From Erysipelotrichales bacterium (GTDB lineage: Bacteria; Bacillota_I; Bacilli_A; RFN20; CAG-826): a stretch of DNA of 37,509 nt. The stretch's first letter is position 1. Every line of letters starts with the position of its first letter. Positions 5,655-33,810 of the stretch are shown one piece after another. The position numbers were made by a program, and so were the translations under genes. The notes under the pieces were generated by a model. It saw only the letters and a program-made list of their open reading frames with translations. It searched no databases and had not been told where the DNA came from. Location of the stretch: NCBI GenBank assembly GCA_022508525.1, contig JAFLVA010000014.1, positions 1 through 37,509 on the forward strand, read 5' to 3'.

Positions 5655-5684
5655 TGCTATCCTTTATATTAGGAGTTGATGATA

Positions 5685-7211: not shown

Positions 7212-7219
7212 GAGGGAAT

Positions 7220-7612
7220 ATGAAAGCTGAAAAAAAGAAAGTTGAAAAGAAAAAATATTCTGCTCCGATAAAATTAAAACTATTAATTACAATTGTGGAG
7301 CGTAGCAAAGCAGATTACTATGTTGATTTCTTGCAAGATTTTGAAGTAAATATGCAAATGATAACTTATGGATCTGGTACTGCAAATAGTGAAATGCTTA
7401 CTTATTTAGGTTTGCCTGATACGCAAAAAGCTGTTATTTTTTCAATAGTAAAAGAAGAAAAAATGTCTAAAATCAAAGAAAAATTACAAGAGAAATTTAA
7501 AAAGATTCGAAACGGAAAGGGAATTGCCTACACAATTTCATTGAGCAGTGTAATTGGCGTCGCAATTTACCAATTTATGTGTAATAACAAAATGAAAAAG
7601 GAGGAAAACTAA
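7220..7612 (+). CDS. PII-like protein, first copy
   Basis: A protein of 130 residues with a Lys-rich N-terminal extension (about 1-18) and then a ferredoxin-like PII fold: KLLITIVERSKADYYVDFL, a T-loop-like region YGSGTANSEM, and QKAVIFSIV. A C-terminal hydrophobic stretch follows before a short basic tail. It is divergent from classical GlnB and lacks the GARGGT-type T-loop seen in the second copy. AGGAGG lies immediately upstream and overlaps the DUF1538 stop. It is probably a trimeric sensor or a plug for the DUF1538 transporter by analogy with GlnK-AmtB. This is inference. Confidence 0.6.
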   Translation: MKAEKKKVEKKKYSAPIKLKLLITIVERSKADYYVDFLQDFEVNMQMITYGSGTANSEMLTYLGLPDTQKAVIFSIVKEEKMSKIKEKLQEKFKKIRNGKGIAYTISLSSVIGVAIYQFMCNNKMKKEEN

Positions 7613-7613
7613 T

Positions 7614-7955
7614 ATGCAATATGAAGTAGTGTTCTGTATTGTAAATAATGGCTTTAGCGAAGCTGTTATGGATGCAGCAAAAAGTTATGGTGCACGTGGT
7701 GGAACAGTTTTACGTGCTCGTGGAACTGCAAGCAAAGAAGCAGAAAAAATATTTAATATTTCTATACAAGCAGAAAAAGAAATTGTTATGATTATTATTC
7801 CTTCTGAAATTAAAGAAAATATTTTACATGCACTATACAAACAAGTTGGTTTAGATACACCTGGACAAGGTATTGCGTTCTGTCTACCTGTTGATGATGT
7901 AATTGGCTTAACACCTATAAAGGAGAATAAAACAAATGGAAAAGATAATTCTTGA
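7614..7955 (+). CDS. PII-like nitrogen-regulatory family protein, second copy
   Basis: A protein of 113 residues with a recognisable PII signature: VFCIVNNGFSEAVMDAAKSY, then GARGGTVLRARGT, which corresponds to the PII T-loop base and nucleotide-binding segment, and a late GQGIAFCLPVDDVIG. Classical uridylylation-site features are not evident. It starts one base after the first PII-like gene, with GGAGG upstream, and its last 20 bases overlap the nucleoside hydrolase gene, so all are one operon. It probably binds adenine nucleotides and adjusts the DUF1538 protein. The ligand is not shown by the sequence. Confidence 0.7.
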   Translation: MQYEVVFCIVNNGFSEAVMDAAKSYGARGGTVLRARGTASKEAEKIFNISIQAEKEIVMIIIPSEIKENILHALYKQVGLDTPGQGIAFCLPVDDVIGLTPIKENKTNGKDNS

Positions 7956-8868
7956 TTGTGATCCTGGACATGATGACGCTGTTGCTATTATGTTGGCAGG
8001 GAAAAACGAATCAATTAACCTTTTAGGTATTACTGTATCTTCAGGAAATCAAAGTATTGAAAAAACTACATTAAATGCTCTAAATATATGCCAATATCTT
8101 GATATTGATGTTCCTGTGGCTAAAGGTTGTTCGCATCCAATAATTAGAGAAGTGGAAGTATGCGAAGCGATACATGGAGAATCTGGATTAGATGGCTTTG
8201 AATTTCCTTGTCTTAAAAAAGAATTAGATTCTCGCCATGCTGTTCAATTTATAATTGACACACTTTTAAACGAAAAAGACAAAGTCACAATAGTAGTAAC
8301 AGGACCATTGACTAATCTAGCTATGGCCTTGCGCTTAGAACCAAAAATAATAGAAAAAATTAAACGAGTTGTTCTAATGGGTGGATCATATCAAATGGGT
8401 AACGTAACACCGGCAAGTGAATTTAATGTATTATGTGATCCTGAAGCTGCTCATATAGTTCTTAGTTCTAATCTAGCAATTTATATGATTACTTTAGATG
8501 TGACACGTAAAGTATTGTGCTACGACAAAATAGTTGAAAGAATGAAAAAAATAAATAATAAAGCTAGTGATTTGTTTGTTGCATTGATGAAAGTATTCAA
8601 CGAAAATCAACATAAGGTTTTTGGATATTTAGGTGCGCCACTTCATGATCCTGTAACAATAGCATTGATAATTGATGAAAGTTTAGTGCAATTTAAGCAC
8701 ACTAATACAGAAATTGATTTAAGCCATGGTAGCAGTTATGGAAGAACAAATTCTGATTTATTTGATTATTTAAAAAAAGAGAAAAATAGTTATGTATCAG
8801 TAGATATAGATGTCGAAAGATTTTGGGATATAGTGGAAACTAGCCTAAAAAAATATGAGGTAAAATAG
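7936..8868 (+). CDS. Inosine-uridine preferring nucleoside hydrolase family protein
   Basis: A cytoplasmic hydrolase of 310 residues that cleaves the N-glycosidic bond of ribonucleosides to ribose and base. The N-terminal Ca-binding motif DCDPGHDDA (residues 7-15) is intact. VTGPLTNLA and VLMGGSYQMGN follow in the usual order, and the active-site histidine segment GAPLHDPVTIA is present near 240. The length is typical of RihA/RihB/RihC. Specificity (purine or pyrimidine) cannot be settled. The start has AGGAG at 7921-7925 and lies inside the end of the PII-like gene. Its operon with PII-like proteins and a DUF1538 transporter raises the question of a nucleoside or base related substrate. Confidence 0.88.
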   Translation: MEKIILDCDPGHDDAVAIMLAGKNESINLLGITVSSGNQSIEKTTLNALNICQYLDIDVPVAKGCSHPIIREVEVCEAIHGESGLDGFEFPCLKKELDSRHAVQFIIDTLLNEKDKVTIVVTGPLTNLAMALRLEPKIIEKIKRVVLMGGSYQMGNVTPASEFNVLCDPEAAHIVLSSNLAIYMITLDVTRKVLCYDKIVERMKKINNKASDLFVALMKVFNENQHKVFGYLGAPLHDPVTIALIIDESLVQFKHTNTEIDLSHGSSYGRTNSDLFDYLKKEKNSYVSVDIDVERFWDIVETSLKKYEVK

Positions 8869-19170: not shown

Positions 19171-21477
19171 ATGACAAATATTGAATTACTTGCACCAGCA
19201 GGGAATATAGACGCTTTAAAGGCTGCGATTAATAATGGTGCAAATGCAGTATATTTAGGGCTAAATAATTTTAATGCTCGCATGAAGGCGGATAATTTCA
19301 CGATTGATAATATTAGAAGTGTTGTCGAATTTGCTCACCTTTTTAATGTCAAGGTTTATTTAACAATCAATACAATTTTAAAAGATGAAGAAATCACTGA
19401 TTTTTTATATATGATAGATAAATGCGTGGAAGCTAAAGTAGACGCATATATTGTGCAAGACTTTGGTGCGGCATATTTACTAAAAAATCGCTATAAAGGT
19501 ATTTGTTTGCATGCATCTACTCAAATGGGAATACATAATTTATTAGGTGCAAAAGTAGCGGAAGATTTTGGATTTAAGAGAGTAATTTTATCGCGAGAAA
19601 CAACTCTAAAAGATATAAAAAGCATCAAAGAAAATACAAATTTGGAGATTGAATTTTTTGTTCAAGGCGCGCTATGTGTAAGCTTTTCTGGAAATTGCTA
19701 TATGTCTAGTTTCTTATCAAAAGAAAGTGGTAATAGAGGAAGATGCAAACAATATTGTAGACAAAAGTATATTGTTTCTGATGGCGAAAAAACACTTGAT
19801 AAGGGATATTATTTATCAGCAAAAGATCTAAGCCTTGCTAACGAACTACGGGCCTTAGTCAATGCAGGTGTTATGTCATTTAAAATTGAAGGAAGAATGC
19901 GTCGAGAAGGCTATGTCGCATTAGCAGTAAAAACTTATCGAAAGTTAATCGATGAAAATTATAGAAGAATAAATGAAGAAGAACAAAAAGATCTTCGTGT
20001 TGCTTTTTCTCGTGGTGAATTTAATAACTATGCATATTTAAATGGTAATAATGGAAATATTATTAATGAAAAAAACCAAAATCATTTAGGCGTCAAAATA
20101 GGAAAATTACTACATATAATGCCATTTAAAAATGATTTATACGAGTTAGAAATATATTCAAGTCATGAGTTATCGAGTGGTGATGGATTGAAATTCATCG
20201 ATGGAAACAAAGAAATTTCAAGTCTTGGCGTGGGAAATGTCATAAAAAAACGAAGCAATGTCTATACAATTTTTACTAAGCAGAAAATTTCAAAAATAAA
20301 TCTAGATGTTTATTTAACTCTTGATAAAAAACGTGAAGATGAGTGTTTAAATTTTTCTAAAAAACTTCCAGTAGACATAAAAATAAAGGCTTTAGAAGAA
20401 GAAAAGTTACAAATGTTTTTAGAGTGCAATGGAGTTAATGTAGACTATACATCAAATTTCATTTGTAAAAAAGCCATAAATCAAGTTACCTCACAAGATG
20501 AAATTATACGACAAGTCTCAAAGTTAAACGATACGGAATTTGCACCAAATAGTTTTGAAATATCACTAGACAAAGTATTTATTCCTAAAAGCATTCTTAA
20601 TGATTTAAGACGTGCAGGTTTTAAACTTTTAAAAGAATGTTTAATTAACGATTTTGAAAAAGAATATAATGTTGAAATTTTATTAGATAAGTTAGATCAT
20701 AGTTATGAATTTATAAATTATGGCGATGCACTTATCATTAACGAAGAAATAGATTTAAATTTACTCGACAAGAGTTATCAAGGACTTATTATTTATGCTC
20801 CTAATAATTATTATCCGCAATTGCACAATAAAATCGAGTATTTATTAAATTATTTTACTAAAGCAAAAATTGCTCTCAATCTTCCGTTAATCGCAACTAT
20901 ATCAGATTTAAATATTTTAGAAACAATAATTAAAAAACTTAAGAATGTTATTTTAGTGGCTAATAATATTTATGGCCTTGCTTTTTGTAAGTGTTATGAT
21001 GTAATTGCAAATTCTAGTTTAAATATTAATAACAGTTATGCCATTAAATTAATGAAAGAATTGGGCGTAAAAGCCGTTGTGTCTTCTATAGAGAGTAATA
21101 AAGAATTTCTTTTGAAGCATCCTGACTTATATTATTATTCCTTTGGGTATAATACTCTAATGAACTATGTCCATTGTCCTTTTAAAAGTGTTTACAAAAA
21201 AGAATGTAAAAATTGTGCATATCATGATTCTTTATCGTTTAAAGATGAATTCAACAATAGTACATACTCAATTAGAAGAATCAAAATTGAACGTTGTTAT
21301 TTTGAGCTTTTAAACTCTAATGCCATAAATGTATATAAAAAAATCAATAATCCGGGAATTATTGATTTAAGAAATGTCAAAAAAATAACTACACTTTTAG
21401 AAATGCTGGAAAACCAAAGAAGTTGTAACGTAGAAGACAAAGAAACAACAGGTTTGTTTTTGAAATTTATAGACTAG
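19171..21477 (+). CDS. Long U32 family protein, RlhA-like RNA hydroxylase homologue
   Basis: A protein of 768 residues. The U32 core (about 1-280) starts IELLAPAGN and contains the family signature around FFVQGALCVSFSGNC. Four Cys at 169, 176, 192 and 196 are spaced as the putative iron-sulfur ligands. It continues with KIEGRMR, then the VAFSRGEFNNYAYLNG segment. A long C-terminal part of DUF3656 type ends with a CPFK...C..C cluster and YSIRR. This matches E. coli RlhA (YdcP), which makes 5-hydroxycytidine in 23S rRNA, more than the short TrhP/YrrO form. Family names such as collagenase or peptidase are historical. It has GGAG upstream and ends 8 bases from the convergent chorismate mutase. 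The RNA target is inferred. Confidence 0.82.
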   Translation: MTNIELLAPAGNIDALKAAINNGANAVYLGLNNFNARMKADNFTIDNIRSVVEFAHLFNVKVYLTINTILKDEEITDFLYMIDKCVEAKVDAYIVQDFGAAYLLKNRYKGICLHASTQMGIHNLLGAKVAEDFGFKRVILSRETTLKDIKSIKENTNLEIEFFVQGALCVSFSGNCYMSSFLSKESGNRGRCKQYCRQKYIVSDGEKTLDKGYYLSAKDLSLANELRALVNAGVMSFKIEGRMRREGYVALAVKTYRKLIDENYRRINEEEQKDLRVAFSRGEFNNYAYLNGNNGNIINEKNQNHLGVKIGKLLHIMPFKNDLYELEIYSSHELSSGDGLKFIDGNKEISSLGVGNVIKKRSNVYTIFTKQKISKINLDVYLTLDKKREDECLNFSKKLPVDIKIKALEEEKLQMFLECNGVNVDYTSNFICKKAINQVTSQDEIIRQVSKLNDTEFAPNSFEISLDKVFIPKSILNDLRRAGFKLLKECLINDFEKEYNVEILLDKLDHSYEFINYGDALIINEEIDLNLLDKSYQGLIIYAPNNYYPQLHNKIEYLLNYFTKAKIALNLPLIATISDLNILETIIKKLKNVILVANNIYGLAFCKCYDVIANSSLNINNSYAIKLMKELGVKAVVSSIESNKEFLLKHPDLYYYSFGYNTLMNYVHCPFKSVYKKECKNCAYHDSLSFKDEFNNSTYSIRRIKIERCYFELLNSNAINVYKKINNPGIIDLRNVKKITTLLEMLENQRSCNVEDKETTGLFLKFID

Positions 21478-21485
21478 TAGCAATG

Positions 21486-21767
21486 TTATCTAAAGTTTGT
21501 TTTTATCAAGTCTTCTTGATATTTTTTGCTTGCTTTAATTAAAGCGTTGTTTACTGGTTCATAATAATTTTTTACAATATGTATAGGATGATTTTCTATT
21601 TTTGATTTAATCTCTTTTTCACGTTCTTTATTTGTAATTTTTATATTATTATCATATTTTATTTTCGCGATTTTTTCAGCAATTTGCATACGTAATACAA
21701 ATAATTCCATTAATTTAGAATCTATTTCATCGATTTCTTTTCTTAAAATTTTTAATTCGTTTTCCAT
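21486..21767 (-). CDS. Chorismate mutase, AroQ class (monofunctional)
   Basis: This converts chorismate to prephenate. It has 93 residues, all helical, with the AroQ-class pattern: LRKEIDEIDSKLMELFVLRM gives Arg9 and Arg26, a Lys in AEKIAKIK, a NKEREKEI segment, and SKKYQ near the C-terminus supplying the Ser/Gln pair. It is not fused to prephenate dehydratase, prephenate dehydrogenase or DAHP synthase, so its product is free prephenate. It diverges from the aroB-led operon across a 130-base region and converges on the RlhA-like gene. TATAAT preceded by TGA at 21790-21785 (minus strand) is its likely promoter. GGTGA serves as ribosome binding site. Confidence 0.85.
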   Translation of the reverse strand: MENELKILRKEIDEIDSKLMELFVLRMQIAEKIAKIKYDNNIKITNKEREKEIKSKIENHPIHIVKNYYEPVNNALIKASKKYQEDLIKTNFR

Positions 21768-21858: not shown

Positions 21859-21897
21859 ATTAAAATAATGAATTATTTTAAGAGTGAGGTGACTAGT

Positions 21898-22878
21898 ATG
21901 ATTATTAATTTATTTGCAGAAAACGGCAGATATCAAGCCATATTAAAAAAAGGTATTTTTAATCATCTCAATAGTTATCTTGACTTCAACAAAAAGATTC
22001 TTTTTATCATAGATGAAAATGTTAGTGAAAAATTTTATAAAAAGTTTACCAGTAATGGAATTGTATATAAATTTATAGCTTTAGAAAAAAACAAGTCAAT
22101 TGAGACTGTAATGGAAATTATTGAAATATTGAACAATAATAATTTCTCTCGCGATGACTACATTGTGTCAATTGGGGGCGGAATCACTTCAGATGTTGCA
22201 GGATTTGCTTCATCAATATACAAAAGAGGTATTAAATGGATATCAATTCCGACTACAACTCTTGCAATGATTGATGCTTCAGTAGGTGGCAAAACCGGGA
22301 TTAACTATCAAAACGCTAAAAATCAAATTGGTAATTTTTATTTTCCAGAGAAAGTGTTGATAGATGTTAATGTTTTAAAAACATTAGATAAAAGAAATTT
22401 TAATAATGGACTTTGCGAAGCAATAAAGATAGGAATAACGCTTGAAAAATCAATTTTAGATTTAATGATTGATCCTTATACTAATTTAATGAAGATTATT
22501 GAAAAATCTATAAAAGCTAAAAATAAAATAGTCAAACTAGATATAAGAGACTATAATGCTCGACATGTGTTAAATTTTGGTCATACAATAGGGCATGCTT
22601 TAGAAATGGTCGATAATGATTTATTGCATGGTGAAGCAATATTAATTGGAATGCACTATGTTTCTTCTTTTAAAGTGAAAAAAATTATTAGAAACTATAT
22701 GGTTCAATTTGATATTTCAGATAGATTTTATGATTTTAATCAATTAATTCCTTATCTTTTGCAAGATAAAAAAATCGAAGCAAATAAATTTAAAATTGTA
22801 TTAGCCAATGATATTCTTGATTATACAATTAAAGATATGGACTTAGATGAATTAAAATCAATTTATGAAAGAAGGTAA
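21898..22878 (+). CDS. aroB: 3-dehydroquinate synthase
   Basis: Second step of the shikimate pathway: DAHP to 3-dehydroquinate, needing NAD and a divalent metal. I take ATG 21898 (326 residues) because GAGGTG lies just upstream, rather than ATG 21868. Family motifs are intact: GGGITSDVAGFASS, PTTTLAMIDASVGGKTGIN, then the metal-binding histidines in LNFGHTIGHALE and LLHGEAILIGM. It is slightly shorter than the usual 350-360 residues. First gene of a tightly packed seven-gene operon; the next start is 3 bases after its stop. Confidence 0.93.
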   Translation: MIINLFAENGRYQAILKKGIFNHLNSYLDFNKKILFIIDENVSEKFYKKFTSNGIVYKFIALEKNKSIETVMEIIEILNNNNFSRDDYIVSIGGGITSDVAGFASSIYKRGIKWISIPTTTLAMIDASVGGKTGINYQNAKNQIGNFYFPEKVLIDVNVLKTLDKRNFNNGLCEAIKIGITLEKSILDLMIDPYTNLMKIIEKSIKAKNKIVKLDIRDYNARHVLNFGHTIGHALEMVDNDLLHGEAILIGMHYVSSFKVKKIIRNYMVQFDISDRFYDFNQLIPYLLQDKKIEANKFKIVLANDILDYTIKDMDLDELKSIYERR

Positions 22879-22881
22879 ATT

Positions 22882-23868
22882 ATGGGAAGTGTACTAGGAA
22901 AGAATATCACATTAACTATATTCGGTGAATCTCATGGAAAAGTAGTAGGAGCAACACTTGCTGGTTTGCCTTCAGGAATTAAAATTGACGAAAATTTTAT
23001 TAATTCACAAATGATGAAACGTAAGGCAGTTGGTGGATTAACTACTCCACGTATTGAAGATGATAAAGTTAAATTTATAAGTGGAGTGAAAGATGGATTT
23101 TCAAACGGAAACCCATTAACAGTAATTATTGAAAATAATGATTATGATGATAGAGAATATATAAATAAAATTGCTCGACCATCTCATAGTGATTTCGTAA
23201 CGTTTATGCGTCATAAAGAATACGGAGAAAGAAGAGGTGGCGGATTTTCATCTGGTCGTTTAACTGCACCAATTGTGGCATTAGGTGCAATTGTCATATC
23301 AATACTTGAAAGCAAAAATATTCATATATCTTCCTCAATTAATAAAAAAGTATTAGATAAAATAGATGAGGTTAGGAAAGATGGAAATTCAATTGGCGCT
23401 GAAGTAACAACTATTATAAGTGGAGTTGATATCGGTATTGGTGAGCCAATGTTTGATTCTATGGAAAGTGTTTTTGCTCATGCAATATTTTCTATACCTG
23501 GTGTAAAAGGTGTGTCTTTTGGACTTGGTTTTAAATATGATGAGGCATTGGGTAGTGAAGTCAATGATCAATTTATCATTAAAAATGATAAGGTTACCAC
23601 CAAAACAAACAATAGCGGTGGTATAGATGGTGGCATGACAAATGGTAATGACATAGTAATTCATACTGTTTTCAAACCAACTCCATCAATTGCAATGACG
23701 CAAAATGCATTAAACTTAGAAACAATGAGAATTGAAGAATATAAAATTGAAGGACGTCACGATGCATGTATAGCACTTCGTGGTCAAGTAGTTGTGGATA
23801 GTATACTTGCAATATCGTTATTTGATATGCTTGTGGAATTTTATGGAAAAAGGTATTTTAGCAAATGA
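22882..23868 (+). CDS. aroC: Chorismate synthase
   Basis: Last step to chorismate: EPSP to chorismate with reduced FMN. It has 328 residues, shorter than the usual 350-390. FGESHG at the start, RPSHSDF, then the RRGGGFSSGRLTAP block (in place of the common GRSSARET form) and the late GRHDACI block are all present. The GGGxxSGRLTAP variant occurs in other anaerobic Firmicutes. AAGAAGG lies before its ATG. Its stop overlaps the start of the aroE::aroK fusion as ATGA. Confidence 0.93.
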   Translation: MGSVLGKNITLTIFGESHGKVVGATLAGLPSGIKIDENFINSQMMKRKAVGGLTTPRIEDDKVKFISGVKDGFSNGNPLTVIIENNDYDDREYINKIARPSHSDFVTFMRHKEYGERRGGGFSSGRLTAPIVALGAIVISILESKNIHISSSINKKVLDKIDEVRKDGNSIGAEVTTIISGVDIGIGEPMFDSMESVFAHAIFSIPGVKGVSFGLGFKYDEALGSEVNDQFIIKNDKVTTKTNNSGGIDGGMTNGNDIVIHTVFKPTPSIAMTQNALNLETMRIEEYKIEGRHDACIALRGQVVVDSILAISLFDMLVEFYGKRYFSK

Positions 23869-25109
23869 GATACGGTTTAATTGGTAATAATGTAAATAAT
23901 AGTTTTTCTAAATACATTCATCATTTATTTAATAATGACGATTATTTTTTATTATCTGTTAATAAAAAGAAACTTCAAAATATTTTATTATCTAAAAAAT
24001 TTCGTGGACTAAATATTACAAAACCTTACAAAAAAGAAGTAATCCAATATTTGGATAAATTAGATAATATTGCTAGTAAAACAAATTCTGTAAATACAAT
24101 TATAAATAAAGATGGTTTATTAATTGGTTATAATACTGATTATGATGGTTTACGCTATTTATTTGAAAAAAATGGAATTGATATTACTGGAAAAAACATT
24201 GCTATTTTAGGAAGTGGCGGAGTAAGTTCTACAGTTGAGTGTATAGCAAAAGAATTAAATGCAAAAAACATTTATAGGATCAGTCGTAAGCCTAAACAAG
24301 ATTACATAACTTATAAAGAATTAGAAGGTAAAAACGTTGAAATAATTATCAATGCTACTCCGCGCGGGATGAGTGAAAATTCATTTCGCCCGTTAGTAAA
24401 TTTAAAAAGAATAATTGGTTTAGAAGCTGTTATTGATTTGATATATAATCCACTAAACACGTTTTTACTACAAGAAGCAAAAAAATTAAATGTTAAGGCC
24501 ATTAACGGACTAGATATGCTAATTGAACAAGCAAGGCTAGCAGAAGAATTATTTCAAAATACCAATATCAGTAAAGATAAAAACGTAATAATTTATCAAA
24601 AGATTCTAGATAAAAACTTAAATATCGCATTTATTGGTATGCCGTATTCAGGAAAGTCCACTATTGCCTACAATTTATCACAGCTATTAAATAAAGATTT
24701 TATCGATTTGGATATGCTTATTGAGGCAAGCACTAATCTTGAAATTAAAGATTTTATAAATAGACATGGTGAAAAGGAATTTCGAAAAGAAGAGTATAAA
24801 ATGCTAAAACTGCTTTCCTTTCAAAATGGTGAGATAATATCATGTGGTGGCGGTGTAGTTTTGAATAATTTAAATATGTCATTTTTGATGCAAAATTCTA
24901 TTGTTGTTTATTTAAAACGCGATATTAAATTGATAGAATTTGATGATAGTAGACCACTAGCATCAAATGAAAAAAGTTATCTAGAGTTATTAAAAAAGAG
25001 AGAAAAGCTTTATGAAAAATATGCTGATATTACGGTTGAAAACAATAAAACAGTTGAAGAAGTAGTTTTAGAAATTGCGAGGAAATATTATGAAATTTTT
25101 AGTAATTAA
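23865..25109 (+). CDS. aroE/aroK: Bifunctional shikimate dehydrogenase / shikimate kinase fusion
   Basis: A protein of 414 residues doing two consecutive steps: 3-dehydroshikimate to shikimate, then shikimate 3-phosphate. Residues 1-235 are AroE: substrate-binding Ser13 and Ser15, NITKPYK with catalytic Lys56, GYNTDYDG with Asp92, and the nucleotide loop GSGG (116-119). Residues 250-414 are AroK: Walker A GMPYSGKST (258-266), FIDLD near 280-283, the FRKEE segment, CGGGVV and SRPLA. Both active sites look complete. No linker domain is apparent, and no frameshift separates the halves. Its last 20 bases overlap the dehydroquinase gene. Confidence 0.92.
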   Translation: MRYGLIGNNVNNSFSKYIHHLFNNDDYFLLSVNKKKLQNILLSKKFRGLNITKPYKKEVIQYLDKLDNIASKTNSVNTIINKDGLLIGYNTDYDGLRYLFEKNGIDITGKNIAILGSGGVSSTVECIAKELNAKNIYRISRKPKQDYITYKELEGKNVEIIINATPRGMSENSFRPLVNLKRIIGLEAVIDLIYNPLNTFLLQEAKKLNVKAINGLDMLIEQARLAEELFQNTNISKDKNVIIYQKILDKNLNIAFIGMPYSGKSTIAYNLSQLLNKDFIDLDMLIEASTNLEIKDFINRHGEKEFRKEEYKMLKLLSFQNGEIISCGGGVVLNNLNMSFLMQNSIVVYLKRDIKLIEFDDSRPLASNEKSYLELLKKREKLYEKYADITVENNKTVEEVVLEIARKYYEIFSN

Positions 25110-25524
25110 TGGTGTCAATTTAAATATGCTAGGTATTAGAGAAAAAGATGTATATGGAAATAGGTCATATGATGATTTATGTAATTATATAAAAGAAATT
25201 GCTAGCGAAGAAAAAGTCGACTTAGATATTTTCTTTTCCAATTTCGAAGGTGAAATCGTGGAAAAGATTCAAAACTCATATGCAGTGTATGATGGTATTA
25301 TTATAAATCCAGGTGCATATGCACATTATTCCATTGCTATTCTTGACGCTCTTAGATCAGTTAATTTGCCTACTATTGAAGTACATCTTACTGATGTAAT
25401 GAATAGGGAAAACTATCGAAGAGTTTTAATTACAAGTGAGGCTTGTTTTTTAACTATAATGGGCAAAGGTTTTGAAGGATATAAAGAAGCTATTATAAAA
25501 ATGAAACAAAAGTTAGGTGAGTAA
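25090..25524 (+). CDS. aroQ: Type II 3-dehydroquinate dehydratase
   Basis: Third pathway step: 3-dehydroquinate to 3-dehydroshikimate. It has 145 residues from ATG 25090, with AGGA upstream; the in-frame TTG at 25075 has no support. NGVNLNMLG (usually NGPNLN), REKDVYG with the active-site Tyr, INPGAYAHYS, EVHLTDV with the catalytic His, and NYRR are in the expected order. Type II enzymes form dodecamers and are unrelated to the type I AroD fold. The overlap with the upstream fusion implies translational coupling. Confidence 0.92.
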   Translation: MKFLVINGVNLNMLGIREKDVYGNRSYDDLCNYIKEIASEEKVDLDIFFSNFEGEIVEKIQNSYAVYDGIIINPGAYAHYSIAILDALRSVNLPTIEVHLTDVMNRENYRRVLITSEACFLTIMGKGFEGYKEAIIKMKQKLGE

Positions 25525-25525
25525 G

Positions 25526-26491
25526 ATGAAAATTTATTTGAATAAAACTTGTGACTTAAGTGAAATAAAACATAATCTTGATGCGCATAATGTATTTTTT
25601 GATATCCACGAAATAGATGAAAAACTTGTATTATTTATTGATGATTTGGATTTTCAAAGAGTAAATAAAATAATTAATGCTGAGTTTATTGAAGATATAA
25701 TGCCAATCTATGATTTAAAATTAACTTTACGATTACATCATCCTGAAGATACAATTATAAAAGTTAAAAATTGCCAAATTGGTGGAAATAAAAAAGTTGT
25801 TATTGCTGGACCATGTGCTGTAGAAGACGAAAATACTATGCGACTTATTGGACAAAAAGCAAAAAAATGTGGTGTTAATGTTTTAAGAGGTGGTGCATTT
25901 AAACCACGCACTAATCCTTATTCATTCCAAGGATTATATGAACATGGACTCAGCATTCTTAAAAATATTGGTGACGAATTTGATTTGCCTATTATATCTG
26001 AAATAACAGATATTGATTATTTGGATAAATTTATCGAATGTGTGGACATTATTCAAGTAGGAGCAAGAAATATGCAGAATTTTGCCCTTTTAGAAAAACT
26101 AGGCAAAGTCAATAAACCAATTCTTTTAAAAAGAGGATTTAACAACACCATTGAAGAATTGTTATGTTCTGCTGAATATATTATGAAAAATGGAAATGAA
26201 CAAGTTATCCTTTGTGAACGAGGAATACGAACACCATTAAGTTACACGAGAAGTACACTTGATTTAAGTTCAGTCGCTATATTAAAAGAAGTAACGCACT
26301 TACCAGTTATTGTCGATCCATCACATGGAACTGGCAAAAGAAAATTAATTTTGCCGATGTCAAAAGCATCGTTTAGTGTTGGGGCAGATGGAGTCTTACT
26401 AGAAGCTCACATTTCTCCTAATAAAGCAATGTCAGATTCTGAACAAACAATTTCTTTTGAAGAAGTAGAAAAAATAATAAAGAGTATTTAA
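25526..26491 (+). CDS. aroF: 3-deoxy-7-phosphoheptulonate (DAHP) synthase
   Basis: First step: phosphoenolpyruvate plus erythrose-4-phosphate to DAHP. It has 321 residues from ATG 25526, with AGGTGA 5 bases upstream; GTG 25517 is a less likely start. An N-terminal ferredoxin-like domain (about 1-75) precedes the barrel, the layout of the Thermotoga/Bacillus type in which this domain gives feedback control. The barrel has VVIAGPCAVE, LRGGAFKPRTNPYSFQG, QVGARNMQNF, LLKRG, LCERGIRT and VDPSHGTGKR. No chorismate mutase domain is fused. One base separates it from the previous stop. Confidence 0.93.
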   Translation: MKIYLNKTCDLSEIKHNLDAHNVFFDIHEIDEKLVLFIDDLDFQRVNKIINAEFIEDIMPIYDLKLTLRLHHPEDTIIKVKNCQIGGNKKVVIAGPCAVEDENTMRLIGQKAKKCGVNVLRGGAFKPRTNPYSFQGLYEHGLSILKNIGDEFDLPIISEITDIDYLDKFIECVDIIQVGARNMQNFALLEKLGKVNKPILLKRGFNNTIEELLCSAEYIMKNGNEQVILCERGIRTPLSYTRSTLDLSSVAILKEVTHLPVIVDPSHGTGKRKLILPMSKASFSVGADGVLLEAHISPNKAMSDSEQTISFEEVEKIIKSI

Positions 26492-26493
26492 TT

Positions 26494-28590
26494 ATGAATA
26501 TCAAAATTCAAAATAATGAACTTAAAGATAACAAAATAATTTCTTTACCGGGAAGTAAAAGTATTACTATCCGTGCTTTATTTTGTGCATTTTTGGCTGA
26601 CTCATCATCTACAATTATTAATTCATCAATTTGCGAAGATGTTTTGGCCACGATCGATGTACTTAATAAATTAGGTGGAAGAATTACTAGAAAAGGAAAT
26701 AAAATAATCGTAAATAAAAGAATCGAAATTGATAAAAATAGATTTAAAATTAATGTTAAATCCTCAGCAACTCTTTTAAGATTTATCATTCCTTTGTTTT
26801 TAGTTCTCTTTCCTAATAAAGAATTGACTATATTAATGAATCGTGATTTATATCTTAGACCACTTGATGGCTTTAATAGACTCTTTGAAGAAAATGAGAT
26901 ATATACGAAAAATGAAGATGGAAAACTTATCATATGTGGTGAACTTAAAAATGATGAAATAACAATTGATGGTGGTAAATCTTCACAATTTATTTCTGGA
27001 ATGCTAATTGCACTTTCAAAAAGAAATGTTGATACTCATTTGAAAATTACTGATGCACATAATTCTAAAGGCTATATTGACATGACAGTTAAAGTGATGG
27101 AACAATTTAACATCAAGTGTGATTTGGATTTTATTAGAGGAAATCAAATATTTAATGGAAAAGAAGTTGTTGTAGAACCAGATTATTCTAATGCAGCTTT
27201 ATTTTTTGCACTTGCATTAAAAAAAGAAAAAACTACATTTAAAAACATCAAAAATAATTCAATACAACCAGATGCAAAAATTCTTAACTTATTAAAAGAT
27301 GTTGGTGCTAATATTGAAAAGCAAGATGATACTTTAATAATTTATAAATCGACTTTACAAGGATTTAATTTAGACCTTAATAATTGCATTGATCTTGCTC
27401 CAATGCTATTTGCATTATCAACACAAGCTAAGGAGAAAAGCGTTTTTAAAGGCTTGAAACGATTAGAATATAAAGAATCTAATCGCCTTTTAGAAACTAT
27501 TAAAATCTTTGATATATTGAAAGTAAAGTACGATTATAGTGAAGATACATTAATTGTATTTCCTTCAAACATCGCATCAAATGATTTGATACAATGCCCA
27601 AAAGATCATCGAATGATTCATGCACTTATTTATTTAGCAAGTGTGAATGATAACGAAATTGAACTAGTAGATGTTGAGTCGTTATTTAAATCGGATTTAA
27701 ATATTTTAGACAATTTAAATTCGTTAATTGATATTACATATCATAAGCCGCAAGTTTTAATATCTGTTAAATCTCTTGATGATTTGAAAATCAAAGCTGA
27801 TGGATATGTTATGGGATATAATAAATTTACGCTTTTTGCTGCAAATTATTTTAGCTTTAAGGATATAAAAACCGCGGCAAAAGAAAAAAAAGTTTTTGTC
27901 TTACTTAATGCTCTCATTCATCAAAATAAATTAAATGAATTTAAAAAAGAAATTGATAAGTTATGTGAATTGAATGTTTGCTTTATTTTTCAAGATGTTG
28001 GCGCTCTTCAATATTTGAAAACAAAAATAGATTCCAGTCGCATAATTTTTAATCCATATACTCTAATTTGCCAGCAAGATGAACTGGAAGCATATCTATT
28101 AAATTCCGATGTTACATTCGGAATAAGTAATGAAATTACTTTATTTGATACTTATAAGACTTTAAGAAGCGGAAAAGGATTTTTGCTTGCATTTGGCTAT
28201 GCACCAATGTATCAAAGTTATCGAAAAGTATTATCACTATATGAAAATTACATTGGACGCAATTTTAGAAGAGATGATTTACTATTGAAAGAAGATACTA
28301 GAAATGAATTTTATCATGTCACTGAAAATAAATACGGGACTGTAATTTTTAGACCATATATTATTTCATATTTAGAAAATATGTCTCACATTTTGAATGC
28401 AAAGTACTTGTTTTTAGATTCTAATTTTATTGATGGACATAAATTTAAAAAAGTAATTGCTCTACTATATAAAATACTTGATAACAAAATTGATGAGAAA
28501 AAAGTAAAAGAGTATTTGCTAAAACTAAATTTAAATATTGAAGATGGATTTAAATATCAAGATTCAATCTATAAGGAGAAGTCGCTATGA
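26494..28590 (+). CDS. aroA: EPSP synthase fused to a U32 (TrhP1/YrrN-like) domain
   Basis: A protein of 698 residues with two parts. Residues 1-415 are EPSP synthase: LPGSKSITIRAL (18-29), SSATLLRF (90-97), GGKSSQFISGM (160-170), PDYSNAALFFA (229-239), RLEYKESNRL (323-332) and KDHRMIHAL (370-378). Residues about 417-698 are not EPSP synthase. They resemble the first subunit of the B. subtilis U32 pair (YrrN, called TrhP1): VLISVKSLDDLKIKADGYVMG, FSFKDIKTAAKEKKVFVLLNALIH, GISNEITLFDTY, and PMYQSYRKVLS at 571-581. The position of YrrN's lone Cys is Pro571. The four U32 Cys are absent, so this domain is probably a structural or RNA-binding partner. The gene overlaps the downstream U32 start by four bases. 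Confidence 0.85.
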   Translation: MNIKIQNNELKDNKIISLPGSKSITIRALFCAFLADSSSTIINSSICEDVLATIDVLNKLGGRITRKGNKIIVNKRIEIDKNRFKINVKSSATLLRFIIPLFLVLFPNKELTILMNRDLYLRPLDGFNRLFEENEIYTKNEDGKLIICGELKNDEITIDGGKSSQFISGMLIALSKRNVDTHLKITDAHNSKGYIDMTVKVMEQFNIKCDLDFIRGNQIFNGKEVVVEPDYSNAALFFALALKKEKTTFKNIKNNSIQPDAKILNLLKDVGANIEKQDDTLIIYKSTLQGFNLDLNNCIDLAPMLFALSTQAKEKSVFKGLKRLEYKESNRLLETIKIFDILKVKYDYSEDTLIVFPSNIASNDLIQCPKDHRMIHALIYLASVNDNEIELVDVESLFKSDLNILDNLNSLIDITYHKPQVLISVKSLDDLKIKADGYVMGYNKFTLFAANYFSFKDIKTAAKEKKVFVLLNALIHQNKLNEFKKEIDKLCELNVCFIFQDVGALQYLKTKIDSSRIIFNPYTLICQQDELEAYLLNSDVTFGISNEITLFDTYKTLRSGKGFLLAFGYAPMYQSYRKVLSLYENYIGRNFRRDDLLLKEDTRNEFYHVTENKYGTVIFRPYIISYLENMSHILNAKYLFLDSNFIDGHKFKKVIALLYKILDNKIDEKKVKEYLLKLNLNIEDGFKYQDSIYKEKSL

Positions 28591-29789
28591 AGAAAATTGA
28601 ATTATTAGCACCGGCTGGTGACTTAGATCGTCTTAAATTAGCGCTTTTATATGGTGCAGATGCTGTTTATATTGGTGGAAAAGAAATGTCGCTTCGTTCA
28701 CATGCTTCAAACTTTACAATTGAAGATATTAAAGAAGGTGTAGAATTTGCGCATAATTTAAATAAAAAAGTTTATATAACTTGCAATATGGTTATGCATA
28801 ATGAAGACAAAAAAAACGCATTAAATTATCTTCAGGAACTTAAAAAATGTAAAGTAGATGGTATTATTACTTCCTCACTTGATTTAATTAACCTTAACAA
28901 TCAATTTGTAGGAAATGAAATGCATATTTCCACACAACTTTCGACGTTAAACACTGAAGCTATTAAATTCTATCAAAACTATAAAGTAACGAGAGTTGTT
29001 TTAGGAAGAGAATGTTCTTTAAAAGAGATTAAAGATATATGTGCAAATACACCAGTAGAGATTGAGGTATTTATTCATGGCGGTATGTGTTCATCATATT
29101 CGGGGAAATGCATGCTATCTAATGTTATGACATTAAGAGATGCTAATCGTGGAGGATGTGCTCATTCTTGTCGCTGGAAATATTACTTGTATGAATGGAA
29201 AAATAGATTAAATAAGAAAAATGAATACTTTGCTATGTCGAGCAAGGATTTATGTGCTTTAAAAGATATACCAAAGTTAATTAAAGCCGGAGTAGCCTCG
29301 CTTAAAATTGAAGGTAGAATGAAGTCATACAATTATTTATGTGCAATTATATCAGCATATCGCAAATGTATTGATGACTATTACGATAATAAAAAACTTA
29401 ATTACAAATATTATTATGATTTAATGTCATATGGTGAAAATCGTGTAACTGGCCAGGGATTCCTTCATGGGGAAGTTACTATAAATGAACAGTTATTTAC
29501 ATTGAATGAAGAGTTCAAAAATGCTGGAGATTTTATTGGCATTGTTCGCTCCTATGATAAAGAACTAAAAATTGCAAATGTTGAAATAAAAAACAAAATT
29601 CTTAGTGACTGCGAGTATATAAAACTATCTCCTAGACATAAACCAAAAAAATTTAAAATTCAAAAGATGTATTTTGAAAATAACGAAGTTAATGTTTTTA
29701 CAGTTGCAAATAAAATAGTGCAAATTAAAACAAAAGAAATGTTTAAGCCATACGATATAATTCATGCAAAGAGAGAAGAAAAACGCTAG
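28587..29789 (+). CDS. U32 family tRNA hydroxylase homologue (TrhP2/YrrO-like)
   Basis: A protein of 400 residues. It starts IELLAPAGDLDRLK and has the U32 signature VFIHGGMCSSYSGKC. Four Cys at 168, 175, 191 and 195 match the putative iron-sulfur ligands. KIEGRMKS and a C-terminal beta-barrel-like domain (about 310-400) follow. E. coli TrhP and B. subtilis TrhP1/TrhP2 (YrrN/YrrO) hydroxylate U34 of tRNAs to 5-hydroxyuridine, and TrhP activity has been tied to prephenate. GGAG precedes the ATG, which overlaps the aroA-U32 stop. No trmR (YrrM) methyltransferase is adjacent. Function is inferred from homology and from its fused partner upstream. Confidence 0.85.
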   Translation: MKKIELLAPAGDLDRLKLALLYGADAVYIGGKEMSLRSHASNFTIEDIKEGVEFAHNLNKKVYITCNMVMHNEDKKNALNYLQELKKCKVDGIITSSLDLINLNNQFVGNEMHISTQLSTLNTEAIKFYQNYKVTRVVLGRECSLKEIKDICANTPVEIEVFIHGGMCSSYSGKCMLSNVMTLRDANRGGCAHSCRWKYYLYEWKNRLNKKNEYFAMSSKDLCALKDIPKLIKAGVASLKIEGRMKSYNYLCAIISAYRKCIDDYYDNKKLNYKYYYDLMSYGENRVTGQGFLHGEVTINEQLFTLNEEFKNAGDFIGIVRSYDKELKIANVEIKNKILSDCEYIKLSPRHKPKKFKIQKMYFENNEVNVFTVANKIVQIKTKEMFKPYDIIHAKREEKR

Positions 29790-29805
29790 AATATCTAGCG
29801 TTTTT
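29779..29805. terminator. Bidirectional terminator at the end of the aro/U32 operon
   Basis: Perfect 12-base stem AAAAACGCTAGA (29779-29790) with TCTAGCGTTTTT (29794-29805), loop ATA. The plus-strand U32 stop (TAG 29787-29789) lies in the left arm and the minus-strand mutM::coaE stop (29797-29795) in the right arm. Confidence 0.9.
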
Positions 29806-31201
29806 GTTTTAGAATTTTTTCAATAATTTCTTTTAATTCCAATTTTAATTCTTCGATAGTGATATTTGAACTAGTTATAAAATCCATCTTATCAATGTTT
29901 TCATCAAAGCCGTTATTCTTATTTAATTCAAGATAATTTTTAATATCTTCGACATGGCGTTTTTTGAGATTTTCAATTTGTTTTTCATTGCTGATATCGA
30001 TGCCAATTATATAATCGCACATGTAATCCATATGAGAAGTAAATAGTAGAGGAACTTCAATAAAAACAAATTCTGTTTTTGAAGAATTAATGAAATCTAA
30101 TAATTTTGCTTCTACTAATGGATGAATCACGCTTTCTAAATAGATTTTCTTCTTTTCATCAGCAAGAATTATTTCTTTTAAAACATGCTTATCAACTACA
30201 TCATCTTTTATTGCTTGAACAAAACGGCGTTTCAGTTTTTGAATAACTTCAGGTTCGGAATATAAAGAATTTACAATATCATCACTTGAAATAACATCAT
30301 ATCCAAGTTCTTTAAAATAATTTAAAGCGGTAGTTTTACCGGACGCAATTTTACCAACTATTCCAACTACCTTTTTGTTATAAGATGGCTTTTGGCATCT
30401 TGGGCAATAAGTAGTACCTCGCCCTCCAACAGTTATCTTTTTTAATTGGTAATTGCAGACAGGACATGTGGAGCCTTTTTTTCCGTAAACTAATAATTCA
30501 TTCTGAAATTTTCCATCTACACCACGGGCGGCATGATATGATTTTACAGTTGATCCACCTAGCTTAATTGCTTTATTCAAAACAATAACTGCTTTATCAA
30601 CAATACTTTGAATCTGTTTGTCGTCTAAATATTTAGATGGTGTTAAAGGATTTAACTTGCATCTAAACAAGACTTCATCAGCGTATATATTTCCAAGTCC
30701 TGAAATAATTGTCTGATCCATAATAGAGACTTTTATTGGAATATTGGTATTTAACTTTTCTTTTAGTAAACTAATATCTTTAATATCAAAAGGTTCTTGA
30801 CCAAGTTTTGCAATCATCTTTTCAGATTCTAAATCTTTGGCTTTTATTAACTTCATAATACCAAAGCAACGTGTATCATCATAGGAAATACGCTTTCCGT
30901 CATTTAAGGTGAAAATCACACGTGCATGAGCGCTTTTAGATTCATTGCCATATAGTTCAATATACTTTCCTTCCATTCTCAAATGTGATATTAAAACATA
31001 ATCATCGCTAAGGTAAAAAAGTAAATATTTACCCTTTCTTTTAATATCTAAAAATGTTTTATCTTTTAAAACTTTGGCGAATTCGTCTAGAGGTGACAAA
31101 ATCATTTTGGGATATAAAATTTCGACATTTTTAATAGTTTTATTGACAAGAATTGGCGTTAAAATTCTTTTAACAGTTTCAACTTCTGGTAATTCTGGCA
31201 T
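29795..31201 (-). CDS. mutM/coaE: Formamidopyrimidine-DNA glycosylase fused to dephospho-CoA kinase
   Basis: A protein of 468 residues from ATG 31201. That start gives MPELPEVE, required because Pro2 and Glu3 are catalytic in MutM. An upstream in-frame start would bury Pro2, and GGTGA lies at the right distance. MutM (1-272) shows RKGKYL with Lys58, GLGNIYADEVLF and a C-terminal zinc finger with Cys246, 249, 266 and 269. It removes 8-oxoguanine. After a junction at about 273-276 comes CoaE: P-loop GKIASGKT (283-290), SSDD near 305-308, HPLVEAK and VEDIK. It phosphorylates dephospho-CoA. mutM and coaE are separate neighbours in streptococci and relatives; here they form one frame. Last gene of the dnaE-polA operon. 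Confidence 0.92.
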   Translation of the reverse strand: MPELPEVETVKRILTPILVNKTIKNVEILYPKMILSPLDEFAKVLKDKTFLDIKRKGKYLLFYLSDDYVLISHLRMEGKYIELYGNESKSAHARVIFTLNDGKRISYDDTRCFGIMKLIKAKDLESEKMIAKLGQEPFDIKDISLLKEKLNTNIPIKVSIMDQTIISGLGNIYADEVLFRCKLNPLTPSKYLDDKQIQSIVDKAVIVLNKAIKLGGSTVKSYHAARGVDGKFQNELLVYGKKGSTCPVCNYQLKKITVGGRGTTYCPRCQKPSYNKKVVGIVGKIASGKTTALNYFKELGYDVISSDDIVNSLYSEPEVIQKLKRRFVQAIKDDVVDKHVLKEIILADEKKKIYLESVIHPLVEAKLLDFINSSKTEFVFIEVPLLFTSHMDYMCDYIIGIDISNEKQIENLKKRHVEDIKNYLELNKNNGFDENIDKMDFITSSNITIEELKLELKEIIEKILKQKR

Positions 31202-31209
31202 AACTTCAC

Positions 31210-33810
31210 CTACTTTGCATCGTACCAAGTTTTGGCATAGCTTCCATCAACTTTTAGTTTAGCTGGAAGTTTTGGATATACTTGCTCCATTAAATATTTG
31301 ATTTTTTCACTAACAATATCAAGTTCATCTCGAGGAACCTTAAATATCAATTCGTCGTGAATTTGTAAAACAAGCTTTGTTTTAAAGTTGTTCTCGACAA
31401 GCATTTTATCAATATTAACCATTGCCATTTTAATTAAATCTGCAGCTGTACCTTGAATTGGAGCATTAGTAGCAGCGCGTTTGGCGAATTCTCGTGTTTG
31501 ATAATTTTGATCATGAATTTCTCTTAGATATCTAATTCTTCCAAATACTGTTTTGACATATCCATCTTTTTCAGCATTAGTAATAATATTAGTCATAAAG
31601 TATTTAATTTCTGGATATGACTCATAGAAACTTTTAATTATTTCTCTCGCTTCAAAAGCTGGAATATCTAATTGCTCCGATAATCCCCAATCTGAAATAC
31701 CATATACAATACCAAAGTTTACAGCTTTAGCTTTTCTTCGATCGGCACTAGTAACTGATTCTTTATGGAAAACGTATTTAGCAGTGGCCTCATGGATATC
31801 TTCATCGTTGTTGAATGCATCAATTAATTTCGTACAGTTACATAGTGAGGCTAGGACACGTAATTCGACTTGTGAATAGTCGAAGGATAAAATGTAGTCG
31901 TCACTATCATAGAAGAATGCTTTACGAATTGATTTACCTTCTTCATCACGAACAGAAATGTTTTGTAAGTTTGGGTTAGAAGAAGATAATCTTCCTGTTG
32001 TCGTTTCTGCTTGATTAAATTTTGGATGAAGTTTTCCATCGCTATGAATATGCACAAGTAAACCATCAATATAGGTGGAAGTCAGTTTTGCATATTTTCG
32101 ATATTCAAGAATTAGAGGTATTACAGGATGCTTATCAACAACTTTTTTTAAAACATCTATTGAAGTTGAAAATTTCTTATCGCCTTCAAATACTCCAAGT
32201 TTTACAAGTAATTCAGAAATTTGTTTTGGCGAAGCAATATTAAATCTTTCTCCAGCAATATCATAGATTCTATTTTCTAATTCGCATTGTTTATCACGGA
32301 ATGTTTGACCAATTTCTTTTAATTGTTTAGCATCCAATGGGAAACCTTCTATTTCCATTTTTGCTAAAACGTTAGATAATGGTAATTCGATATTTTGGTA
32401 TAAGTCAAATAAATCAAGATCTTTTATTTGTCTTTCAGCTTCATCTTTTATACGCAAAGCATTATAGGCGATTTCACATGTCCTTTTAATTGTTTTTGAA
32501 TTATCACTAAAAAGACTGAGATTTTCTTCTTCAAGTCTTGTTAAAGAAATCGAGAAGAAATTAAATACGGCATCTATATTACTGTTTAGTGATGAATCAA
32601 TGATATAAGAGGCAATTAAAGCATCAAAGCATCCGCCAGAAAGATTAAATCCAAATCTTGATAAGGCGACTTTGTTTGCTTTAAAATCATAACAACATTT
32701 TTTGATTTCATCGCTATTTAGCATATCTTTAAGCTTTTCATCATTTTTTGCATTTTCGCTTGAAATATAATAAATATTATTAGAAGTGGCAATAGAAATA
32801 CCCTCGATATGGCTGTTGTAATAATCCGTTTCATCGTAATTAAGTGCAAGGCCAATAATTTTATCTTCAAAATGTGGAATTTGTGTCACTTCTAAGTATT
32901 TTACCTCTGTGTAGGTATTTGTTGATTTAATAAATTTTTGATTCATTTTATTCATAAGAGTTTTTAAATCATATTTTTTACAAAACTCTGAAAGTCTATT
33001 AAAATCATAGCCTTCATAAATTGTATCATCAAGACTAAAAGGTAATGTTAGATCGATTTTAATTTGTGCTAAATGTTTGCATAGTTTTCCTGATTCTTGA
33101 TTCTCAATGATAGATGTATAAATTTTTCCTGGACGATTTTTTGCTTCTTCAATAATGTTTTCTAGATTGTCTAGTTCATTAAGTAATTTGACCGCAGTCT
33201 TTTGACCTATGCCAGGTATTCCTTTTAAGTTATCCGAAGAATCACCCATTAATCCTTTATAGTCAGGAATTTGTTCTGGACGGAGGCCCATTTCATTCAT
33301 GAGTGTTTCTTCATCCATAACTTTTATATCACTTAATCCCTTCTTAATGAGATTTACTTTAATGTGTTTATCAATGAGTTGCAAAAAGTCTTTGTCAGAA
33401 GTATAAATTGTAACTTCATATCCTTCACTTTGAGCAAGTTTGGCAGCTGTACCAGCGATATCATCACCTTCAAAACCTTCTAGTTCATAAGTATATATTC
33501 CCAGCACTGAAAGTAATTCACGCGCAATTGGCATTTGAATGATAAGTTCTTGATCGACTGGTTTACGATTTGCTTTATATGTGTCTAGTTCTTGATGACG
33601 GAATGTTTTTTTACCAGTATCAAAAACGACAAGTAATCTTTCCTCACCTTTAAAACCATTTACAATACGAGATAGCATATTTGAAAATGCAAAAATAGCA
33701 TTAGTAGGTGTGCCATCTTTAGCACGCATTAAAGGAGCGGTAGGATTAAATGTTGCAAAATATGCACGAAATAATAGGGAATTTCCATCTACAATAATTA
33801 TTTTTTTCAT
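31210..33810 (-). CDS. polA: DNA polymerase I
   Basis: A protein of 866 residues for Okazaki-fragment processing and repair. The 5'-3' exonuclease domain (1-290) has IIVDGNSLLFRAYF, ELEGFEGDDIAGT, TSDKDFLQL and GIPGIGQKTA. The middle 3'-5' exonuclease-like domain lacks the catalytic DxE: the exo I region reads LALNYDETDYY, so proofreading is probably absent, as in B. subtilis PolA. The polymerase domain has DYSQVELR, RRKAKAVNFGIVYG and QIHDEL. GGAGG is 7 bases before the ATG. The gene follows dnaE after 2 bases, and its stop overlaps the mutM ribosome binding site. Confidence 0.95.
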   Translation of the reverse strand: MKKIIIVDGNSLLFRAYFATFNPTAPLMRAKDGTPTNAIFAFSNMLSRIVNGFKGEERLLVVFDTGKKTFRHQELDTYKANRKPVDQELIIQMPIARELLSVLGIYTYELEGFEGDDIAGTAAKLAQSEGYEVTIYTSDKDFLQLIDKHIKVNLIKKGLSDIKVMDEETLMNEMGLRPEQIPDYKGLMGDSSDNLKGIPGIGQKTAVKLLNELDNLENIIEEAKNRPGKIYTSIIENQESGKLCKHLAQIKIDLTLPFSLDDTIYEGYDFNRLSEFCKKYDLKTLMNKMNQKFIKSTNTYTEVKYLEVTQIPHFEDKIIGLALNYDETDYYNSHIEGISIATSNNIYYISSENAKNDEKLKDMLNSDEIKKCCYDFKANKVALSRFGFNLSGGCFDALIASYIIDSSLNSNIDAVFNFFSISLTRLEEENLSLFSDNSKTIKRTCEIAYNALRIKDEAERQIKDLDLFDLYQNIELPLSNVLAKMEIEGFPLDAKQLKEIGQTFRDKQCELENRIYDIAGERFNIASPKQISELLVKLGVFEGDKKFSTSIDVLKKVVDKHPVIPLILEYRKYAKLTSTYIDGLLVHIHSDGKLHPKFNQAETTTGRLSSSNPNLQNISVRDEEGKSIRKAFFYDSDDYILSFDYSQVELRVLASLCNCTKLIDAFNNDEDIHEATAKYVFHKESVTSADRRKAKAVNFGIVYGISDWGLSEQLDIPAFEAREIIKSFYESYPEIKYFMTNIITNAEKDGYVKTVFGRIRYLREIHDQNYQTREFAKRAATNAPIQGTAADLIKMAMVNIDKMLVENNFKTKLVLQIHDELIFKVPRDELDIVSEKIKYLMEQVYPKLPAKLKVDGSYAKTWYDAK

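Follow-up and report, generated by a model that had tools for sequence, protein, structure and literature searches.

Why should the gene of a shikimate-pathway enzyme run in frame into a domain of an RNA-modifying oxidase? The question is raised by a 37,509-nucleotide stretch of DNA from an Erysipelotrichales bacterium (hereafter the window), in which one open reading frame at 26494-28590 on the plus strand, here called aroA::yrrN, remains open across 698 codons. A sequence-only reading of the window had proposed that EPSP synthase is fused here to a YrrN-like U32 domain, and this is borne out by domain matches and by the presence of the fused frame in all four genomes of the genus. The fused gene and its partner comprise the following features.

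26494..27741, plus strand: EPSP synthase (AroA) half, residues 1-416, supported by PF00275, an invariant active-site set and Foldseek
27742..28590, plus strand: YrrN-like Cys-less U32 half, residues 417-698, supported by Pfam, relatives, profile-profile comparison and AlphaFold2
28573..28578, plus strand: ribosome-binding site of yrrO, AAGGAG, read from the sequence within the end of the fusion gene
28587..29789, plus strand: YrrO-like U32 protein with a C-terminal U32 domain and the full Cys set (PF01136, PF16325)

Pfam analysis of the fusion protein placed EPSP_synthase (PF00275) at residues 14-400 (5e-54), and a Foldseek search with the AroA half retrieved EPSP synthases at 2e-35. The NCBI model TIGR01356 also matched this half (1.6e-68), but at 231 bits, below its 287-bit cut-off, and the bifunctional aroA-fusion models of NCBIfam matched only the AroA part. 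Alignment of the four fusions revealed that K22, S23, R27, R122, S163-Q165 (SSQ163-165) and D300 are invariant, as are K327-E328, R331, D371-H372-R373 and K399; we take these to be the active-site positions, following E. coli AroA and the alignments. The AroA half is accordingly annotated as a predicted EPSP synthase with its active-site set retained. In the fused genomes its end leads almost without linker into the first YrrN strand, and neither a stop nor a plausible internal start was found at the junction. Separate production of YrrN from an internal start was rejected, since none of the four genomes has, close to the junction, an in-frame start preceded by a ribosome-binding site. An AlphaFold2 model of the whole fusion has a pTM of 0.72, and how its halves are oriented to each other is uncertain.

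The identity of the second half is carried mainly by comparison with relatives. The C-terminal part matches stand-alone YrrN-like proteins of 288-300 aa at 7e-20 to 3e-13, the best of these being a direct match of the YrrN half to the stand-alone protein of a sister genus (G012). Compared profile against profile, the four fused domains align with ten stand-alone YrrN proteins at 8.5e-33 over 274 columns (hhalign), and with YrrO proteins at 4e-6 (165 columns). Homology to stand-alone YrrN extends along the whole length of the YrrN half, which conserves D85, T107, G152, R161, E184 and R187. Elsewhere in the order, stand-alone YrrN relatives of about 280-300 aa share 20-30% identity with this half and lie directly before a Cys4 U32 gene; in the genus itself YrrN does not stand alone, being joined to AroA. 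The Pfam match that the sequence-only reading had anticipated was obtained, but stayed marginal: Peptidase_U32 matches residues 417-698 alone just below threshold (1.4e-4), and residues 481-669 of the full-length fusion at 0.0018. The anticipated barrel is present in the AlphaFold2 model of the YrrN domain alone, a beta/alpha barrel with a pTM of 0.88. Foldseek with this model gave weak TIM-barrel matches (best 1e-3), and a sequence search of solved structures found no notable match for the U32 half, so the fold supports a barrel while the U32 assignment rests on sequence. On this basis, residues 417-698 are assigned as a YrrN-type, Cys-less U32 domain, as had been claimed from the layout of the protein. 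The claim that this half lacks the U32 Cys set is likewise upheld, none of the four Cys being present in the alignment. The spacing CX6CX15CX3C is absent both from the fused half and from 28 of 28 YrrN proteins found across the class, showing that the absence is a trait of the YrrN family and not decay after fusion. A Cys4 U32 gene adjoins 27 of these 28.

The reading frame that follows, yrrO (400 aa), starts inside the end of aroA::yrrN with an overlap of 4 bases, and its product matches PF01136 at 6.3e-72 and PF16325 at 8e-12. The Cys set predicted for it is complete (C168, C175, C191 and C195, in the spacing CX6CX15CX3C), and these columns are invariant. By analogy with work in B. subtilis and E. 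coli, YrrO would hydroxylate U34 with prephenate.

The genome behind the window is a draft, in which an assembly or sequencing artefact could join two genes. A search for the fusion in other genomes found it in 4/4 genomes of the genus, as a frame of 695-698 aa in an identical gene order. The other three are public MAGs from separate projects (HAN092, Lapin-011 bin74 and RUG131), and their fused proteins share 54-68% full-length identity with that of the window. Since the same fused frame recurs in four independent assemblies, it is not a sequencing error, and an artefact at the junction was rejected, with only a negligible probability left to it. Within the genus, identities are 49-63% for the AroA halves, 62-75% for YrrN and 72-86% for YrrO; conservation of the AroA half is roughly on a par with that of the other aro enzymes, and YrrN and YrrO match or exceed it. 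Among the YrrN matches listed for 395 sampled genomes of the class, a frame of >600 aa was seen as a top match only in the two sampled members of the genus, and the listed matches outside the genus are stand-alone, which speaks against a fusion widespread in the class. In the sister genus G012, aroA, yrrN and yrrO are unfused and the end of aroA overlaps the start of yrrN (ATGA), an arrangement that resembles a pre-fusion state. The RlhA-like gene, chorismate mutase gene and aro genes are arranged there in the same order as in the window, spread over two contigs.

The fusion lies at the end of a cluster with the order RlhA-like gene, chorismate mutase (CM), aroB, aroC, aroE-K, aroQ, DAHPS, aroA::yrrN and yrrO, which is the same in the three other genomes of the genus. 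The genes upstream of the fusion are listed below.

19171..21477, plus strand: RlhA-like protein (U32 + DUF3656, 768 aa); Pfam U32 1.6e-69, DUF3656 1.7e-15
21486..21767, minus strand: monofunctional chorismate mutase (AroQ class, ~93 aa); CM_2 PF01817 1.3e-15
21868..22878, plus strand: aroB, 3-dehydroquinate synthase; TIGR01357 9.8e-81
22882..23868, plus strand: aroC, chorismate synthase; TIGR00033 4.6e-91
23865..25109, plus strand: aroE-aroK fusion (shikimate dehydrogenase + shikimate kinase); NCBIfam, residues 3-242 and 253-409
25075..25524, plus strand: aroQ, type II 3-dehydroquinate dehydratase; PRK05395 6.3e-53
25517..26491, plus strand: DAHP synthase; PRK08673 3.6e-119

A single 11-kb stretch therefore encodes every step from PEP and erythrose-4-phosphate to prephenate, together with two U32 systems of the prephenate type. 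The RlhA-like protein carries the Cys set CX6CX15CX3C, and none of the RlhA models in NCBIfam matched it; by analogy, its gene encodes a putative 23S rRNA C2501 hydroxylase. The chorismate mutase gene, which went unmentioned in the sequence-only reading, sits between the RlhA-like gene, with which it is convergent, and aroB. The best match of its product to NCBIfam chorismate mutase models (1.2e-14) is under their curated cut-offs, and its active-site Arg/Lys/Arg-Glu positions are common to the genus in the alignment. The true start of aroQ is probably about 5 codons downstream of the annotated one. Some further features of the window were observed alongside. In all four genomes of the genus aroC has a deletion of ~37 middle residues and retains both catalytic His regions, and a gene of similar length to the aroE-aroK fusion was seen in aro clusters across the order. 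Beyond yrrO, positions 29795-31228 on the minus strand encode MutM (formamidopyrimidine-DNA glycosylase) fused to CoaE (dephospho-CoA kinase), likewise in the other three genomes of the genus. At the window start lies a CotH-kinase-like protein of 796 aa (644-3034, plus strand), and a DUF1538 membrane protein, two PII-like regulators and a nucleoside hydrolase follow one another at 5676-8868 (plus strand).

What the prephenate is made for was approached through the genes that could consume it. Profile searches detected prephenate dehydratase (PDT) and prephenate dehydrogenase (PDH) in 0/4 genomes of the genus; the two occur together above cut-off in 5/58 relatives, none of them in the genus. 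Chorismate_bind, the family of TrpE, PabB and isochorismate synthase, was found in 0/58 relatives. Menaquinone synthesis through MqnA was rejected as a chorismate sink, as MqnA is absent from the genus. These absences rest on profile searches of MAGs that are 89-96% complete; at completeness values of 92, 89, 96 and 95% for the four genomes, one gene would be missing from all of them by chance in about 2 cases in 100,000. The combination of aroC and CM without PDT/PDH recurs in 12/58 relatives from six genera, and U32 is present in 12/12 of these, compared with 8/41 relatives without aroC (Fisher p = 4.7e-7). Collapsed by genus, the counts are 6/6 and 8/39 (p = 3.7e-4); apart from this collapse, the tests ignore the tree. 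Among CM-bearing genomes 18/19 have U32, and the single exception (G049) has a CM-PDT fusion (pheA) and tyrA. Conversely, six relatives have U32 without aroC or CM_2 (G034, G041, G043, G046, G048 and G053; L084-L091), indicating that U32 can occur without this prephenate supply or uses another source there. No DASS homologues were found near the examined U32 genes of U32-positive, CM-negative genomes.

Because neither a Phe/Tyr branch nor any other recognised chorismate user was found, we read the pathway up to prephenate as largely a supply for RNA hydroxylation, with the fusion as the extreme form of this dedication, and the shikimate pathway of the genus appears to be retained mainly to feed RNA modification. 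In the proposed scheme, DAHPS, AroB, AroQ, AroE-K, AroA and AroC would produce chorismate, which the small chorismate mutase would convert to prephenate. Its consumers would be the two Fe-S U32 oxidases of the cluster, with the YrrN/YrrO heterodimer forming ho5U34 in tRNA and the RlhA-like enzyme forming ho5C in 23S rRNA. AroA::YrrN would act as an EPSP synthase through its N-terminal half and pair with Fe-S-bearing YrrO through its C-terminal half, the fusion having presumably arisen when an overlapping ATGA aroA/yrrN pair was brought in frame. The enzyme activities, the pairing of fused YrrN with YrrO and the use of prephenate as substrate are inferred by analogy. TrmR was rejected as the terminal methyltransferase, as Methyltransf_3 (the TrmR family) has no match in the genus, and the final tRNA product may consequently be ho5U rather than mo5U. 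Taken as a dedicated prephenate-for-RNA cluster with a bifunctional AroA::YrrN derived from an overlapping gene pair, the locus has what we regard as its probable explanation. The functional, Rosetta-stone link that the sequence-only reading drew from the fusion is strengthened by the CM and RlhA-like genes in the cluster, the unfused adjacency in G012 and the missing Phe/Tyr branch.

A second arrangement in the order bears on the same link. Two relatives (G013 and G028) have CM and lack aroC, and in both CM shares an operon with a TrhP-like U32 gene and an anion transporter of the DASS/CitMHS type. The transporter was found in 23/245 genomes of the order (G013, G028 and 21 further; L098-L120), which belong to five genera of the same family as the window's source, and the absence of aroC was examined in G013 and G028 only. 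U32 adjoins it in 23/23, and so does CM in 22/22 with a contig reaching far enough; at two of these loci the U32 gene is more distant and on the opposite strand. The simplest reading, a guess from gene context, is that chorismate, a dicarboxylate, is imported, converted to prephenate and used by U32, making the operon a candidate chorismate-scavenging module. No described bacterial chorismate importer was found in the literature searched, and the DASS transporter is nominated as a candidate. A broader proposal, that in these apparently genome-reduced gut Bacilli the whole shikimate pathway is an RNA-hydroxylation supply anchored via AroA::YrrN while sister lineages import chorismate through DASS instead, is put forward tentatively, with the odds somewhat against it.

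The role of the join itself is less clear than the link between the genes. There is an even chance that the overlapping aroA and yrrN came in frame by accident, the gene link being real and the tether meaningless beyond co-translation. The ATGA overlap in G012 is convertible to a fusion by one indel, the join is nearly linkerless, and the neighbouring pairs aroE-aroK and mutM-coaE are also fused in these genomes. An in-frame neutral fusion of overlapping genes explains the origin of aroA::yrrN. Against neutrality, the fusion was kept even as identity between the AroA halves dropped to 49-63%, and an internal start re-evolved in 0/4 genomes; persistence by itself is no proof of a benefit from the tether, be it fixed stoichiometry, co-expression or channelling. 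A neutral origin is compatible with a dedicated pathway and denies only a role for the join. That the tether keeps AroA at YrrN/YrrO, and by way of AroA also AroC and chorismate mutase, delivering scarce prephenate locally, seems unlikely to us: the join does link a pathway enzyme covalently to one subunit of the prephenate user within the same cluster, but AroA acts two enzymatic steps upstream of prephenate, and AroC and CM, the better candidates for channelling, are unfused.

A different objection is that Phe and Tyr are made through unrecognised enzymes and the proximity of U32 is incidental. The searches covered the PDT and PDH profiles, with AroH-type chorismate mutase and periplasmic-type cyclohexadienyl dehydratase outside them, and cyclohexadienyl dehydratase is known from other bacteria (PMC10520331). 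However, where relatives retain the Phe/Tyr branch, canonical pheA and tyrA lie within the aro operon or next to it, the branch is missing from 12 genomes in 6 genera, and the linkage of CM with U32 persists even where the shikimate pathway is gone. We regard this objection as unlikely, and retain a cluster dedicated to RNA modification as the preferred reading.

In B. subtilis, yrrN and yrrO are both required for about half of mo5U34 (Sakai 2019, PMC6599085). The same study showed that TrhP requires prephenate in E. coli and that TrhP and RlhA are prephenate-dependent (PMC6599085). The U32 oxidases are Cys4 Fe-S proteins with CX6CX15CX3C spacing, YrrN/YrrO being a heterodimer (PMC11574389). 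YrrO is TrhP1 and YrrN is TrhP2 in Sakai 2019 (PMC6599085), and the names are reversed (YrrN = TrhP1, YrrO = TrhP2) in PMC7408541 and PMC11574389, so YrrN/YrrO are the safer names. Like the B. subtilis pair, the genes described here are in tandem, a Cys-less U32 followed directly by a Cys4 U32 with a C-terminal U32 domain. Here, however, YrrN is the C-terminal half of an AroA fusion, the genes lie in an aro cluster whereas those of B. subtilis lie beside trmR (yrrM), and the genus has no match to the TrmR family. The Glu and the four Cys of the U32 motif are common to the YrrO-like protein and E. coli TrhP (YegQ), but TrhP is a single protein without a YrrN partner, and no link between it and aro genes is known. 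The 768-aa neighbour has the U32 + DUF3656 layout and Cys4 motif of E. coli RlhA (YdcP), the 23S rRNA C2501 hydroxylase; the neighbour, a putative rRNA hydroxylase, differs in clustering with chorismate mutase and aro genes. EPSP synthase is also joined to another enzyme in AroA-cytidylate kinase, TyrA-AroA and AROM, none of which joins AroA to an RNA-modification subunit. No report of an aroA-yrrN fusion or a prephenate-dead-end pathway was found in the literature searched, which excluded most subscription journals. Each part is known; neither the join nor a pathway dedicated in this way is described in the literature found.

It is through genetics in E. coli that U32 RNA hydroxylases became known to depend on prephenate, but in E. 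coli prephenate is mainly an amino-acid precursor, whereas here the pathway appears to have no recognised use except RNA modification. If this is true, RNA hydroxylation repays the cost of an entire pathway in these cells, and their one apparent sink for prephenate would make them a natural setting in which to study U32 chemistry. A further prediction is that glyphosate, or another inhibitor of EPSP synthase, would hit RNA modification in these bacteria, rather than act via amino-acid starvation.
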